From NCBI RefSeq assembly GCF_000148645.1, contig NC_014541.1:3061139-3125138 (forward strand): a stretch of DNA of 64,000 nt, read 5' to 3'. Shown here one piece after another: positions 40,625-45,142 of this stretch (position 1 is its first letter; the number at the start of each line of letters is the position of its first letter). A model generated the notes under the pieces. The model had not been told where the DNA came from. It was given only the letters and a program-made list of their open reading frames with translations, and did no database searches. The DNA is from Ferrimonas balearica DSM 9799 (GTDB lineage: Bacteria; Pseudomonadota; Gammaproteobacteria; Enterobacterales; Shewanellaceae). The position numbers were made by a program, and so were the translations under genes.

Positions 40625-42307
40625 ATGGAAAACCTCGATCTCATCATCAGCCTGACCCAACAGATGAGCCTCTACCTGGTATTGGCCTACCTGTTGACCA
40701 AAACCCCGGTGCTCCGCCCCATGGTGGACCTGGCGGTGCACCTGCCCCACAAGCTGATGCTCTACATGGCCTTTTCGCTGTTGTGCATCATGGGCACCTA
40801 TTTTGGCGAAGCCACCCACGGCGCCATCGCCAACACCCGCGCCATCGGCGCCATCCTCTCCGGCCTGCTCGGCGGCCCGGTGGTGGGCACGCTGGTGGGG
40901 CTGACCGGCGGGCTGCATCGTTACTCCCTCGGTGGGTTTACCGACGTCGCCTGCGCCATCTCCACCACTGCAGAGGGGTTGTTGGCGGGCCTGATGCACC
41001 AGCGCCTGGTGCGCAAAGGCAACCTCGACCGGCTGTTCGACCCACGCCGGGTGGCATTGACCGCCCTGACCGCCGAAACCGTGCAGATGCTGATCATCCT
41101 TGCGGTGGCCCGTCCCTTTGATGAGGCACTGGCCCTGGTCAAGGTGATCGCATTGCCGATGATGCTGGTGAACTCCCTCGGTGCGGCGCTGTTTATGAGC
41201 ATGATCCGCGACCAGCGGGCGATTGCGGAAAAGCTGTCGTCGGTGCACTCCGCCAAGGCCCTTAAGATTGCCGAGCGCACCGTCGGCGTGCTGGTGAATG
41301 GGTTTAATCAGGAAACCACCGCCAAGGTGGCACGCATCATCTTTGAAGAGACCAAAGTCAGCGCCGTGGCCATCACCGACCGTGAAAAGCTGCTGGCCTT
41401 TATCGGCACCGGGGCGGACCACCACATTCCCGGCACGCCCATCTCCTCGAAAATGACGCTGGAAGCGATCGCCACCAACCAGGTGGTGTTTGCCGATGGG
41501 GTCGAGCGCCCCTACCGCTGCTCGCTGTCCGACCACTGCCAGCTGGGCTCCAGCCTGATTGTGCCCCTGCGCAGCGAGAATGAGGTGATCGGCACCATTA
41601 AGCTGTACGAAACCAAAAAGCGGCTGTTCCTGAGCCTGAACCAGACATTGGGCGAGGGGATCGCCCGCCTGCTGTCGAACCAGATCCTGACCGGCCGTTA
41701 CCTGGAACAGAAAAGCCTGCTGACCCAGGCTGAGCTCAAGCTGCTGCATGCCCAGGTCAACCCGCACTTCCTGTTTAACGCGCTCAACACCCTGGCCGCC
41801 ATCACCCGGCGTTCGCCGGAGCAGGCGCGGGAGCTGATCCAACACCTGGCCGCATTCCTGCGGGGCAACCTCAAGCGGGGCACCGGCGAGATCACCCTGG
41901 CGGAGGAGCTGGAGCACATCCAGGCCTACCTCACCATCGAACAGGCCCGTTTCGGCGACCGCCTGCAGGTGTCAATTCAGGTGCCGGATGCCCTGCGTCA
42001 CTGCCGACTGCCCACCTTCACCCTGCAGCCGCTGGTGGAGAACGCCATCAAGCACGGCACCTCCACCCTGCTGGAGCCGGGCAAAATCGAGATTGGCGCA
42101 CGGCAAGAGCAGGAGACCCTCGCCCTCTGGGTCAGCGACAACGCCGGCGCCTATGAAGCCAAGAGCAGCTCAGATGGACTGGGCATGAACATCGTCGACC
42201 GCCGTATCAAGAATGAGTACGGTGAACAATATGGCGTGCAGGTGCACTGCGAACCGCAGGTGCGTACCGAGATTGAAGTGCGCCTGCCCAAGAGAGAACT
42301 GGCATGA
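40625..42307 (+). CDS. btsS: LytS-type sensor histidine kinase BtsS
   Basis: 560 residues from the ATG at 40625, matching E. coli BtsS (561). The N-terminal 5TM-5TMR_LYT domain has ANTRAIGAILSGLLGGPVVGTLVGLTGGLHRYSLGG. A GAF domain (about 225-355) contains VAITDREKLLAFIGTGADHH, near-identical to BtsS. The histidine kinase domain has His381 in QVNPHFLFNAL and LQPLVENAIKHG. BtsS binds extracellular pyruvate with high affinity and signals to BtsR. The gene overlaps btsR by 4 bases (ATGA). Confidence 0.95.
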   Translation: MENLDLIISLTQQMSLYLVLAYLLTKTPVLRPMVDLAVHLPHKLMLYMAFSLLCIMGTYFGEATHGAIANTRAIGAILSGLLGGPVVGTLVGLTGGLHRYSLGGFTDVACAISTTAEGLLAGLMHQRLVRKGNLDRLFDPRRVALTALTAETVQMLIILAVARPFDEALALVKVIALPMMLVNSLGAALFMSMIRDQRAIAEKLSSVHSAKALKIAERTVGVLVNGFNQETTAKVARIIFEETKVSAVAITDREKLLAFIGTGADHHIPGTPISSKMTLEAIATNQVVFADGVERPYRCSLSDHCQLGSSLIVPLRSENEVIGTIKLYETKKRLFLSLNQTLGEGIARLLSNQILTGRYLEQKSLLTQAELKLLHAQVNPHFLFNALNTLAAITRRSPEQARELIQHLAAFLRGNLKRGTGEITLAEELEHIQAYLTIEQARFGDRLQVSIQVPDALRHCRLPTFTLQPLVENAIKHGTSTLLEPGKIEIGARQEQETLALWVSDNAGAYEAKSSSDGLGMNIVDRRIKNEYGEQYGVQVHCEPQVRTEIEVRLPKRELA

Positions 42308-43020
42308 TTCGAACCCTGTTGATCGATGACGAACCGCTGGCCCGGGAGGAGCTGGCCATCCTGCTGGAACACCACGACGACATCGAGATCGTCGGCGAGG
42401 CCAATAACGCCATTGAGGGCATGGCCCAGATTAACCAGCTCAAACCGGATCTGGTGTTTCTCGACATCCAGATGCCCAAGATCACCGGTATGGAGATGCT
42501 GGCCATGCTCGACCCGGGCACCATGCCCCGGGTGGTGTTTGTCACCGCCTACGACCAGCACGCCGTCGCCGCGTTTGAAAAGAACGCCTTTGACTACCTG
42601 CTGAAGCCGGTGGTGGAGTCCCGCCTGGCCACCACACTTGAGCGGGTGCGGGCGGCGCAATCGCCCCAGCAGCCCCTGGCCGAGGTGCTGGGAGAAACCA
42701 TCCGCCACCTGCCCTGCTATCAGCGTAACACCCTGAAAGTGGTACGGATGGAGCAGGTGGAGTACGTCTTTTCTGACCTCAGCGGCGTGCACGTAGCCAC
42801 CGCCGCCGACACCAGCCACACCCAGCTCACCCTGAAGGTGCTGGAGGAGCGTTCGCCCCTGATCCGTTGCCACCGCCAGTATCTGGTGAACCCGGAGGCG
42901 ATTGCTGCCATCCGGCTGCAGGAAGGGGGGTATGGCGAGATTGAAACCCACAGTGGCCAGAAGCTGCCGGTCAGCCGCCGCTATATGAAAGGGCTGAAAC
43001 AAACCTTCGGATTTCAGTAG
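42304..43020 (+). CDS. btsR: LytTR response regulator BtsR
   Basis: 238 residues, E. coli length 239. The receiver domain has Asp54 in LVFLDIQMPKI and the loop Lys in DYLLKPV. The LytTR DNA-binding domain covers about 135-235 (YVFSDLSGVHVATAAD, then LIRCHRQYLVNPEAIAAIRL and LPVSRRYMKGLK). It activates btsT-type pyruvate-transporter genes. A nine-copy array matching its motif lies 430 bases downstream, ahead of a CstA-family gene. Confidence 0.95.
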   Translation: MIRTLLIDDEPLAREELAILLEHHDDIEIVGEANNAIEGMAQINQLKPDLVFLDIQMPKITGMEMLAMLDPGTMPRVVFVTAYDQHAVAAFEKNAFDYLLKPVVESRLATTLERVRAAQSPQQPLAEVLGETIRHLPCYQRNTLKVVRMEQVEYVFSDLSGVHVATAADTSHTQLTLKVLEERSPLIRCHRQYLVNPEAIAAIRLQEGGYGEIETHSGQKLPVSRRYMKGLKQTFGFQ

Positions 43021-43107
43021 CCCTTGTGGCACATCGCCGTGCCCCGTCTACACTCAGATAACCCCTGCGGGGTGCATTTTGATGTGGTAATTGAGTGAGG
43101 TACTGGC

Positions 43108-43398
43108 ATGTCTCTGACCAAGGCGGACTTAACCGCCCACCTGGTCGACCATCTTCACCTCAAGGTCACCGACGCTAAGGTGCTGGTGGACACTTTCTTT
43201 GAGGAGATCCGACATACCCTTGAAAAGGGTGAAGAGGTCAAGCTAAGTGGATTCGGTGTGTTTCATCTGAGAGACAAAAACCCCAGGCCGGGACGGAACC
43301 CGAAAACCGGTGAAGAACATGAGATCACGGCCAGGCGGGTCGTGACCTTTGCCGCAGGGGGCAAGCTTAAAGGGCGGGTAGCCACCCTAAAAGCCTGA
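43108..43398 (+). CDS. IHF-alpha-like DNA-bending protein (paralog)
   Basis: 96 residues, GAGG in front of the ATG. It has the HU/IHF fold with IHF-alpha features: [32 protein letters not shown], and the arm [11 protein letters not shown] with the DNA-intercalating Pro, then [19 protein letters not shown]. It differs from housekeeping IhfA at usually invariant spots (FGVFHL for FGNFDL, AAGGKLK for RPGQKLK, EEHEI for EDIPI), and is not next to pheT. I infer a second, divergent IhfA. It lies between btsR and the BtsR-type array, so it may bend that promoter. Confidence 0.85.
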
Positions 43399-43401
43399 AT
43401 C

Positions 43402-43431
43402 ACAACGCCGCGGTTTCCGCGGCGTTGTCTT
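43402..43431 (+). terminator. Hairpin after the IHF-alpha-like gene
   Basis: A perfect 12-bp stem ACAACGCCGCGG/CCGCGGCGTTGT with loop TTT is followed by CTTT, a short T run. It is probably a terminator, possibly leaky; the repeat array starts 16 bases after it. Confidence 0.7.
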
Positions 43432-43446
43432 TATGGGCAGAACCAA

Positions 43447-43618
43447 ACCGCTTATCCCCCATTTTCTGCCACTCACTGCGCCAGCCTGCCGCTCGCCCTC
43501 CCCTACCACCGCTCGGGTGAAAAATCCTTCCGCTTAGCTGAACGAAACGCCGTTTACCGGTTTGGCCGAACCGCTTATCGCCGGATAGTGCCGCTCAACC
43601 AGTGTTGGCAACCGCTCG
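43447..43618 (+). promoter_or_regulatory. Array of nine phased BtsR-type sites in front of the cstA-like gene
   Basis: Nine 8-base motifs on the same strand: 43447 ACCGCTTA, 43468 GCCACTCA, 43488 GCCGCTCG, 43508 ACCGCTCG, 43529 TCCGCTTA, 43549 GCCGTTTA, 43570 ACCGCTTA, 43590 GCCGCTCA, 43611 ACCGCTCG. Spacings are 21, 20, 20, 21, 20, 21, 20 and 21 bp, about two helical turns each. Spacer sequences are not conserved. The reported E. coli BtsR operator is ACC[G/A]CT[C/T]A repeated once with a 13-bp spacer (21-bp period). A -10-like TAAACT lies at 43653-43658 with no good -35, as expected for an activated promoter. Confidence 0.8.
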
Positions 43619-43687
43619 ACAGATAGCACAGGAATGAGCGCGATTCAGTCAGTAAACTGCCGCTAATCTCATTCGAGGACAATAACA

Positions 43688-45142
43688 ATGCTCTGGTTCT
43701 TCACTTGCGTTGGCCTGCTGATCGGCGGCTACTTCATCTACGGCGCCTTCATCGAGAAGGTGTTTGGCATCAACGAACAGCGCCAGACTCCGGCGCACAC
43801 CAAAACCGACGGCGTGGACTACGTGCCCATGTCCAAGAACAAGGTGTACCTGGTTCAGCTGCTCAACATCGCCGGTGTCGGTCCGATCTTCGGCCCGATC
43901 ATGGGTGCCCTGTACGGCCCGGCCGCACTGCTGTGGATCGTTATCGGCTGTGTCTTCGCCGGTGCCGTTCACGACTACTTCTCCGGTATGCTGTCCGTGC
44001 GTAACGGCGGTGCCTCCGTACCGTCCATCGTGGGCAAGTACCTGGGCAACGGCGCCAAGCACTTTATGAACCTGTTTGCGATTGTCCTGCTGCTGCTGGT
44101 GGGTGTGGTGTTCGTTTCCGCGCCGGCTGGCATGATCACTAGCCTGATCAACGAGCAAACCAGCATGACCGTCAGCCTGGGCATGATGGTGGCCGTTATC
44201 TTCGCGTACTACGTGATCGCCACCATCGTTCCGGTGGACAAGATCATCGGTCGCTTCTACCCCTTCTTCGGCGCCCTGCTGATCTTCATGTCCGTTGGCC
44301 TGATTGGCGCGCTGATCGTCTCCAGCGAGCACAGCCTGATGGCGGGTTACCAGGTGAGCGACATGTTCACCAACATGAACCCGAACGACATGCCGCTGTG
44401 GCCTGCCCTGTTCATCACCATCGCCTGTGGTGCCATCTCCGGCTTCCACGCCACTCAGTCTCCGCTGATGGCGCGCTGCATGGAGAACGAGAAGAACGGC
44501 CGTTTCGTGTTCTACGGAGCCATGATTGGTGAGGGTGTGATTGCCCTGATCTGGTGTGCCCTGGCCCTGTCCTACTTCCCGGACGTACAGTCTCTGGCCG
44601 AAGCCGTGAAGAACGGCGGCCCGGGTAACGTGGTGTACTCCGCTTCCTTCGGCCTGCTCGGCGTGTTCGGCGGCATCATCGCCTTCCTGGGTGTGGTGAT
44701 TCTGCCCATCACCTCCGGTGACACCGCGTTCCGCTCCAGCCGTCTGATTCTGGCTGAGTACTTCAACATGGAGCAGACCAGCATCAAGAACCGCCTGGTG
44801 ATTGCTGCCCCGCTGTTCGCCATCGGTGCGGTACTGACCCAAGTGGACTTCGGCATCATCTGGCGCTACTTCGGTTTCGCCAACCAGCTGACCGCCGTCA
44901 TGATGCTGTGGACCGCCAGCGCCTACCTGGCCCGTGCTGACAAGCTGCACTGGATCACCACCATCCCGGCCATGTTTATGACCTCGGTCGTGACCACCTT
45001 CATCCTCAACAACGCCACCCTGGGCTTTGGTCTGGATATGACCATCTCCACCGCCTGTGGCGTACTGACCGCTGCCGTTGTGGCCTTCGTTGTCACCAAC
45101 GTTATCGGTAAGCAGGCACTGCCGGCTGATGCGGAAGCCTAA
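43688..45142 (+). CDS. CstA-family carbon-starvation / pyruvate transporter
   Basis: 484 residues, a short form of the CstA family (E. coli CstA and BtsT are about 700). GAGGAC precedes the ATG. About 12-13 membrane helices are visible. Family motifs include LNIAGVGPIFGPIMGALYGP, FAGAVHDYFSGMLSVRNGG, SGFHATQSPLMARC and ITSGDTAFRSSRLILAE. CstA and BtsT import peptides and/or pyruvate; pyruvate import by BtsT is well supported in E. coli. The nine-site BtsR-type array upstream makes this the likely target of BtsSR. It has its own terminator. Confidence 0.9.
   Translation: MLWFFTCVGLLIGGYFIYGAFIEKVFGINEQRQTPAHTKTDGVDYVPMSKNKVYLVQLLNIAGVGPIFGPIMGALYGPAALLWIVIGCVFAGAVHDYFSGMLSVRNGGASVPSIVGKYLGNGAKHFMNLFAIVLLLLVGVVFVSAPAGMITSLINEQTSMTVSLGMMVAVIFAYYVIATIVPVDKIIGRFYPFFGALLIFMSVGLIGALIVSSEHSLMAGYQVSDMFTNMNPNDMPLWPALFITIACGAISGFHATQSPLMARCMENEKNGRFVFYGAMIGEGVIALIWCALALSYFPDVQSLAEAVKNGGPGNVVYSASFGLLGVFGGIIAFLGVVILPITSGDTAFRSSRLILAEYFNMEQTSIKNRLVIAAPLFAIGAVLTQVDFGIIWRYFGFANQLTAVMMLWTASAYLARADKLHWITTIPAMFMTSVVTTFILNNATLGFGLDMTISTACGVLTAAVVAFVVTNVIGKQALPADAEA

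Follow-up and report, generated by a model that had tools for sequence, protein, structure and literature searches.

A nine-site array of BtsR-type motifs upstream of a CstA-family transporter gene in Ferrimonas balearica: a candidate cooperative operator whose site number varies by lineage

Upstream of a gene for a CstA-family transporter, the window analysed here (a stretch of 64,000 nucleotides from the genome of Ferrimonas balearica DSM 9799) carries nine copies of an 8-bp motif on one strand at regular steps of 20 or 21 bp (43447-43618, plus strand; motif and lattice scans). In all likelihood these form a cooperative array of operators through which the response regulator BtsR would activate a probable pyruvate transporter, with a site number that varies by lineage. 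We read the repeats as BtsR operators because a BtsR equivalog is encoded upstream, the ligand pocket of its partner kinase BtsS is kept, arrays and BtsR co-occur among genomes, the 8-mers are selectively conserved and the same motif stands in the Escherichia coli btsT promoter.

The array and the genes around it

The nine 8-mers start at 43447, 43468, 43488, 43508, 43529, 43549, 43570, 43590 and 43611, all on the plus strand, with start-to-start steps of 21, 20, 20, 21, 20, 21, 20 and 21 bp; these values reproduce the original prediction, drawn from the DNA letters without database searches, of nine 8-mers on one strand at 20/21-bp steps over 172 bp. The consensus of the BtsR 8-mer is ACC[G/A]CT[C/T]A, and in this unwidened form it is fitted exactly only by the two ACCGCTTA copies in the array. 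Six of the nine 8-mers match RCCGCTYR exactly, while GCCACTCA, TCCGCTTA and GCCGTTTA each depart from it at one position, and all nine score 7 or 8 of 8 against [AG]CC[GA]CT[CT][AG], the definition used by our scorer, which was widened to suit the window.

What is exceptional is the chain of 8-mers, the single motif being unremarkable: lone RCCGCTYR matches are not enriched in the window (20 against 26.3 expected), and neither strand of the 64 kb has a second chain of more than two sites at the 7-of-8 threshold. Among first-order Markov copies (Markov-1), the longest chain was three sites, reached in 7 of 200 copies of one 64-kb strand and in 4 of 20,000 copies of the 261-bp region. We also derived a weight matrix from 424 Vibrionaceae sites, none of them drawn from the window. 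With it, the lattice ending at 43611 scored 74.4 and the highest-scoring lattice at any other place on that strand -51.1 (mean -129, sd 18.3); the single array sites scored between 4.1 and 11.8. Across the whole genome (one contig of 4,279,159 bp), a strict pair pattern matched at four places, all inside the array, and a control pattern at one; this strict pattern, which misses degenerate pairs, found no further pair sites elsewhere in the genome. A chance origin of the array is excluded.

Two genes upstream of the array encode the presumptive signalling pair. The first is a btsS-like sensor kinase gene (560 aa; 40625-42307, plus strand; Pfam 5TM-5TMR_LYT, GAF and His_kinase), and the second is btsR, encoding a LytTR response regulator (238 aa; 42304-43020, plus strand; Pfam Response_reg and LytTR) that matches the NCBIfam BtsR equivalog at 345.9 bits (cut-off 246). 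The kinase matches no NCBIfam BtsS model; it is 57.5% identical to E. coli BtsS, and R72, R99, C110 and S113 together with the phosphorylation site H382 (E. coli numbering) are all identical. According to PMC10653868, the residues R72, R99, C110 and S113 make up the pocket for pyruvate in E. coli BtsS. Of three more residues compared, K26 is kept, R39 is replaced by H and R192 by S.

Directly downstream of the array, as had been predicted, is the CstA-family transporter gene (484 aa; 43688-45142, plus strand), the presumed target, whose product matches Pfam CstA at 204.5 bits (cut-off 27) and stays below the cut-off of the NCBIfam CstA equivalog (95.6 vs 1188). We infer the substrate: the protein is probably a pyruvate importer. 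Its nearest named relatives, at 97% each, come from Ferrimonas balearica DP5N7-6 and from a record titled Marinobacter nauticus DP3N21-5 (L036). The array shows the 8-mer and the direct-repeat step of about 21 bp of a BtsR operator, with a cognate BtsR encoded and a CstA-family gene downstream.

The original prediction also placed btsS and btsR directly upstream of the array. They are upstream but not directly so, since a gene for an IHF-alpha-like DNA-bending protein (43108-43398, plus strand) and a hairpin, formed by a perfect 12-bp inverted repeat with a 3-nt loop (43402-43428, plus strand; hairpin search), lie between. The hairpin is the probable terminator of the upstream genes; it is absent from the output of a terminator scan, to whose T-run rule it does not conform. 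An RNA element over the array was rejected: the sole Rfam match was below threshold (ncS54, 21.4 bits, gathering score 43) and fell on the hairpin (43379-43433), outside the array.

The IHF-alpha-like protein scores 129.8 bits against NCBIfam PRK00285 (cut-off 111), yet its 118.8 bits against TIGR00987 lie below the cut-off of 120.25. Its gene is the fifth HU/IHF-family gene of the genome and is 67% identical to a copy elsewhere (L117). The protein is possibly a dedicated DNA-bending partner, and one might go further and suppose that the repeats are bound by a protein other than BtsR, for example by this one, given that its gene stands between btsR and the array in all 13 Ferrimonas loci of this kind. 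We regard such an assignment as very improbable. In the examined Vibrionaceae loci and in those of genus g2 of family f1, the array is present and the IHF-alpha-like gene is absent (tblastn, available flanks); the best match to the IHF consensus in the intergenic region, 7 of 9, was equalled in 355 of 500 shuffles, so that no IHF site above shuffle level was found there; and the motif of the array is the BtsR motif of E. coli. BtsR is thus the candidate that we retain as the protein bound to the repeats.

Conservation of the sites and variation in their number

In 13 Ferrimonas loci, we counted chains of 2, 3, 4, 5 and 9 sites in 3, 2, 4, 1 and 3 loci, respectively, with weak outer sites underlying two of the four four-site chains and one site of a nine-site chain (L007) matching at only 6 of 8. 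The three nine-site species, whose sites are in register, form one clade (support 100/99, the other forks of the tree being weaker), and the CstA proteins of the other two are 97% identical to that of the window. When these species are compared pairwise, 59-60 of 72 motif bases are identical (82-83%), against 30 of 100, 37 of 99 and 34 of 99 in the spacers (30-37%), and the spacer values are near the 29-34% identity obtained with shuffled spacers inside one array. The comparison indicates that the nine positions have been preserved while the intervening DNA turned over, and it bears out the earlier claim that the 8-mers are conserved and the spacers are not. Within an array, the likeness of the spacers to one another is at shuffle level in two of the three species, and in the third (L006) the observed value was equalled or exceeded in 26 of 500 shuffles. 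A recent tandem duplication of a 20-bp unit is unsupported, the spacers inside arrays being mutually dissimilar. Ferrimonas marina has a second CstA-family copy (L095), 81% identical, without an array and without btsR within 3.5 kb.

These data weigh on the idea that the upstream sites are a functionless, passive relic of repeat expansion. In its favour, site number differs inside genera and inside E. coli, where seven strains have between 2 and 4 on-lattice sites. Against it, the nine 8-mers have been kept at 82-83% identity over three species next to spacers that retain 30-37%, and the mutual likeness of spacers within an array is at shuffle level in two of the three species. We think a relic most unlikely, and continue with upstream sites that would be part of a working array.

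Long chains are also present outside Ferrimonas. Among 74 Vibrionaceae loci, assigned from record titles, chains range from 2 to 10 sites, five being the commonest number (26 loci), and 299 of 354 steps are 20 bp. Ten-site chains occur in eight of these loci, and in only three of the eight does every site match at 7 or 8 of the 8 positions; some outer sites of long arrays score just 6 of 8. Ten sites are found in V. harveyi NBRC 15634 (L072). In PMC5552118 (Table 2), V. harveyi has the top pyruvate release of nine species (2837 uM), measured in a strain that differs from the one whose array was counted; this is one data point, not a correlation of site number with pyruvate release.

A survey at the level of the GTDB order covered 394 genomes, 208 of them with a transporter match, and 127 upstream regions were scored. 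At least three sites were present in 70 of the 127 regions and at least two in 106; in the controls, a reversed motif gave 2 and 17 regions, respectively, and the opposite strand 0 and 7. Families differ in their characteristic number: f25 has two sites in all but one of its 26 loci, f11 three sites in 15 of 19, and f21 three to nine sites over 32 loci. When the sets were merged, 197 of 221 distinct upstream regions had at least two sites, the number being odd in 105 loci and even in 92, and 656 of 666 steps were 20 or 21 bp, a proportion conditional on a scorer that permits only steps of 19-22 and 40-42 bp. As read from these genomes, site number ranges between 2 and 10 according to lineage, with nine sites in one Ferrimonas clade. 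The original prediction had described the array as a much enlarged form of a two-site switch; the many sites stand, and nine takes its place at one end of a distribution from 2 to 10. The f25 loci of genus g38 (L200-L220) carry two sites that often end in G, and if g38 is Aeromonas, their motif may be the one that PMC5552118 called unidentified in A. hydrophila.

The presence of phased sites follows the presence of BtsR. We scored BtsR in the 100 survey genomes that supplied 100 of the 127 regions and obtained a match at E 1e-50 in 80 of them, all but one of these matches also passing the curated cut-off. Upstream of the transporter gene, two or more phased sites are present in 79 of the 80 genomes with BtsR and in 0 of the 20 without it. 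The latter belong to families f3 and f8, have no BtsR at E 1e-30 and show at most one site in each region; the BtsR-less genomes are two families only, and so represent few independent events. Exceptions are L185 and L025 (the latter outside the 80), in which BtsR is encoded next to the transporter and a phased pair is missing. The comparison of related genomes, proposed as a check with the original prediction, thus found the phased motif kept nearly throughout where BtsR is kept, and together with the equivalog match of the window protein it upholds the reading of the repeats as BtsR-type operators in front of a CstA-family transporter. E. coli-type long BtsT proteins were sought at E 1e-40 or better in 10 + 11 genomes (G064 in both), and the sole relative was found in G052; it is 63% identical to E. 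coli BtsT, and its genome lacks both a BtsR-grade match (best E 7.8e-16) and a phased pair.

Promoter geometry and a proposed mode of activation

A -10-like hexamer, TAAACT (43652-43657, plus strand), begins 34 bp past the end of the last repeat, 41 bp when counted from the first base of that repeat, and a search of 42900-43800 gave no sigma-70-like -35/-10 pair, in agreement with the original prediction of a -10-like element at this distance with no good -35. If TAAACT is taken as the -10, the last site would span roughly -53 to -46. On a scale that starts with the last site, the best hexamers of the 13 Ferrimonas loci fall between +41 and +43, and a T-A-n-n-A-T hexamer stands at +43 in 63 of the 74 Vibrionaceae loci (T 96%, A 97%, A 86% and T 97% at +43, +44, +47 and +48). 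The distance is near-constant, and it seems that arrays lengthen in the upstream direction while the promoter-proximal site stays in place. Vibrionaceae loci have an extra conserved box at +15 to +22 on the same scale, between the last site and the -10-like hexamer; it reads approximately AGCGAATG and is unlike the BtsR motif.

We propose that external pyruvate would be sensed by BtsS, leading to phosphorylation of BtsR, and that each 8-mer would be recognised by one BtsR LytTR domain. Adjacent BtsR molecules would touch along the 20/21-bp lattice, with occupancy building toward the promoter-proximal site, and BtsR at that site would aid RNA polymerase at a promoter lacking a -35 and thereby turn on the CstA-family transporter gene. 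The array had been called helically phased, a term that is loose here: by arithmetic, a 20-bp step on 10.5-bp DNA slips about 34 degrees, so it is the distance between neighbours that is conserved. By the same arithmetic, ten sites in Vibrio would describe the greater part of one turn.

The similar numbers of odd and even arrays favour growth by single sites and are compatible with a head-to-tail BtsR oligomer, though no proof of one. A more ambitious proposal, to which we would give somewhat less than an even chance, is that BtsR adds monomer by monomer, head to tail, on the 20/21-bp lattice, and that lineages tune pyruvate uptake by means of whole upstream sites while the proximal site stays fixed, which would make the array an evolvable dose-response dial of 2-10 sites across the Gammaproteobacteria.

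How site number might shape the response was explored with a transfer-matrix model, using nearest-neighbour cooperativities of 20, 100 and 500 and arrays of 1-5, 7, 9 and 10 sites. In this model, the Hill slope of the end site is greatest with 4, 5 and 7 sites, respectively (2.05, 2.73 and 3.42), and with nine sites it is 1.86, 2.29 and 3.00, the half-point still falling slightly. The original prediction had BtsR polymerising along the array and giving a steep or graded response to pyruvate; according to the model, nine sites alone do not predict a steeper switch, as steepness levels at about 4-7 sites. The chief effect expected of a longer array is a lower threshold, provided that the end site alone determines output.

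Alternatively, only two or three promoter-proximal sites might switch the gene, the upstream ones titrating active BtsR and in this way raising the threshold or delaying the response. The near-constant distance to the -10 does belong to the promoter-proximal site, two or three sites are enough in many lineages (as in f25 and f11 above), and the modelled end site gains little beyond about 4-7 sites, all of which titration would accommodate. Titration needs no strict lattice, however, yet nearly all steps are 20 or 21 bp (656 of 666, within the steps of 19-22 and 40-42 bp that the scorer allows), and we consider this alternative unlikely. A cooperative array, in which the upstream sites would feed the promoter-proximal one, remains the reading we prefer.

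The E. coli btsT promoter and other repeat-array regulators

The BtsR operator of E. coli is usually described as two repeats. Upstream of btsT in MG1655, we find four motifs, GTCACTTA, GCCGCTCA, ACCGCTTA and ACCACTCA, at -204, -184, -164 and -143 (steps of 20, 20 and 21), three of them perfect and one 7 of 8; the two-site description we take to be the last pair. The comparison with E. coli made in the original prediction accordingly stands for the shared motif and spacing and falls for the two-site switch. The published SPR probe spans three motifs of the btsT promoter (PMC4847170), and btsT is reported to be BtsR-activated in E. coli (PMC10653868).

The 161-bp region upstream of btsT was matched in 5,281 of 5,426 E. 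coli genomes, in 2,742 of them over at least 80% of its length. Our statement on E. coli covers MG1655 and six chosen strains: four strains with partial matches carry three phased sites each, next to a different upstream flank; in M-17 there are four phased btsT sites; and BS-01 has two on-lattice sites, with a third motif displaced from the register by about 2 bp. With a third and a fourth motif visible, the picture of the E. coli btsT promoter is revised. The genes upstream of the operator vary among the seven strains (L115, L260-L265), comprising tsr, a 4-hydroxyphenylacetate monooxygenase reductase gene and a hypothetical gene.

Together, the loci offer a natural series of 2, 3, 4, 5 and up to 10 sites, with one regulator and one promoter geometry, for relating operator number to threshold, slope and timing, and the variation among arrays suggests that LytTR proteins may assemble beyond the dimer. 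The E. coli btsT (yjiY) operator of BtsR (YehT) is the nearest known system and is alike in its 8-mer, direct repeats, 20/21-bp steps, BtsS/BtsR pair and CstA-family target; it differs in having two repeats by the usual description (four motifs as seen in MG1655) against nine in Ferrimonas, and its target is of the 716-aa type and lies away from btsSR, whereas the Ferrimonas target has 484 aa. BtsR motifs are present in most species tested in PMC5552118, the accessible text of which gives no site numbers, and our literature search, with incomplete coverage of the papers likeliest to treat site number, found no description of more than two BtsR sites.

Among other regulators, LytTR sites are described in PMC4847170 as two repeats, with cooperative binding by YpdB and PlnC. 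The YpdB operator of E. coli yhjX shares with the array a LytTR regulator and direct repeats, and YpdB binds them sequentially and cooperatively, but it has two sites and a different motif (PMC4847170). ArcA is likewise a response regulator with a variable number of direct repeats, two to five; unlike the BtsR-type array, it uses an OmpR/PhoB-type domain and 11-bp steps, and its repeat number varies among promoters of one genome and reaches at most five (PMC3798270). BldC forms head-to-tail oligomers on a variable number of direct repeats and so provides a physical precedent for a possible BtsR filament, although it is a small MerR-like protein and no response regulator (PMC5859096). Measured against the systems as these sources describe them, a LytTR array of nine or ten sites, variable by lineage in front of one gene, extends beyond the known repeat-array regulators.
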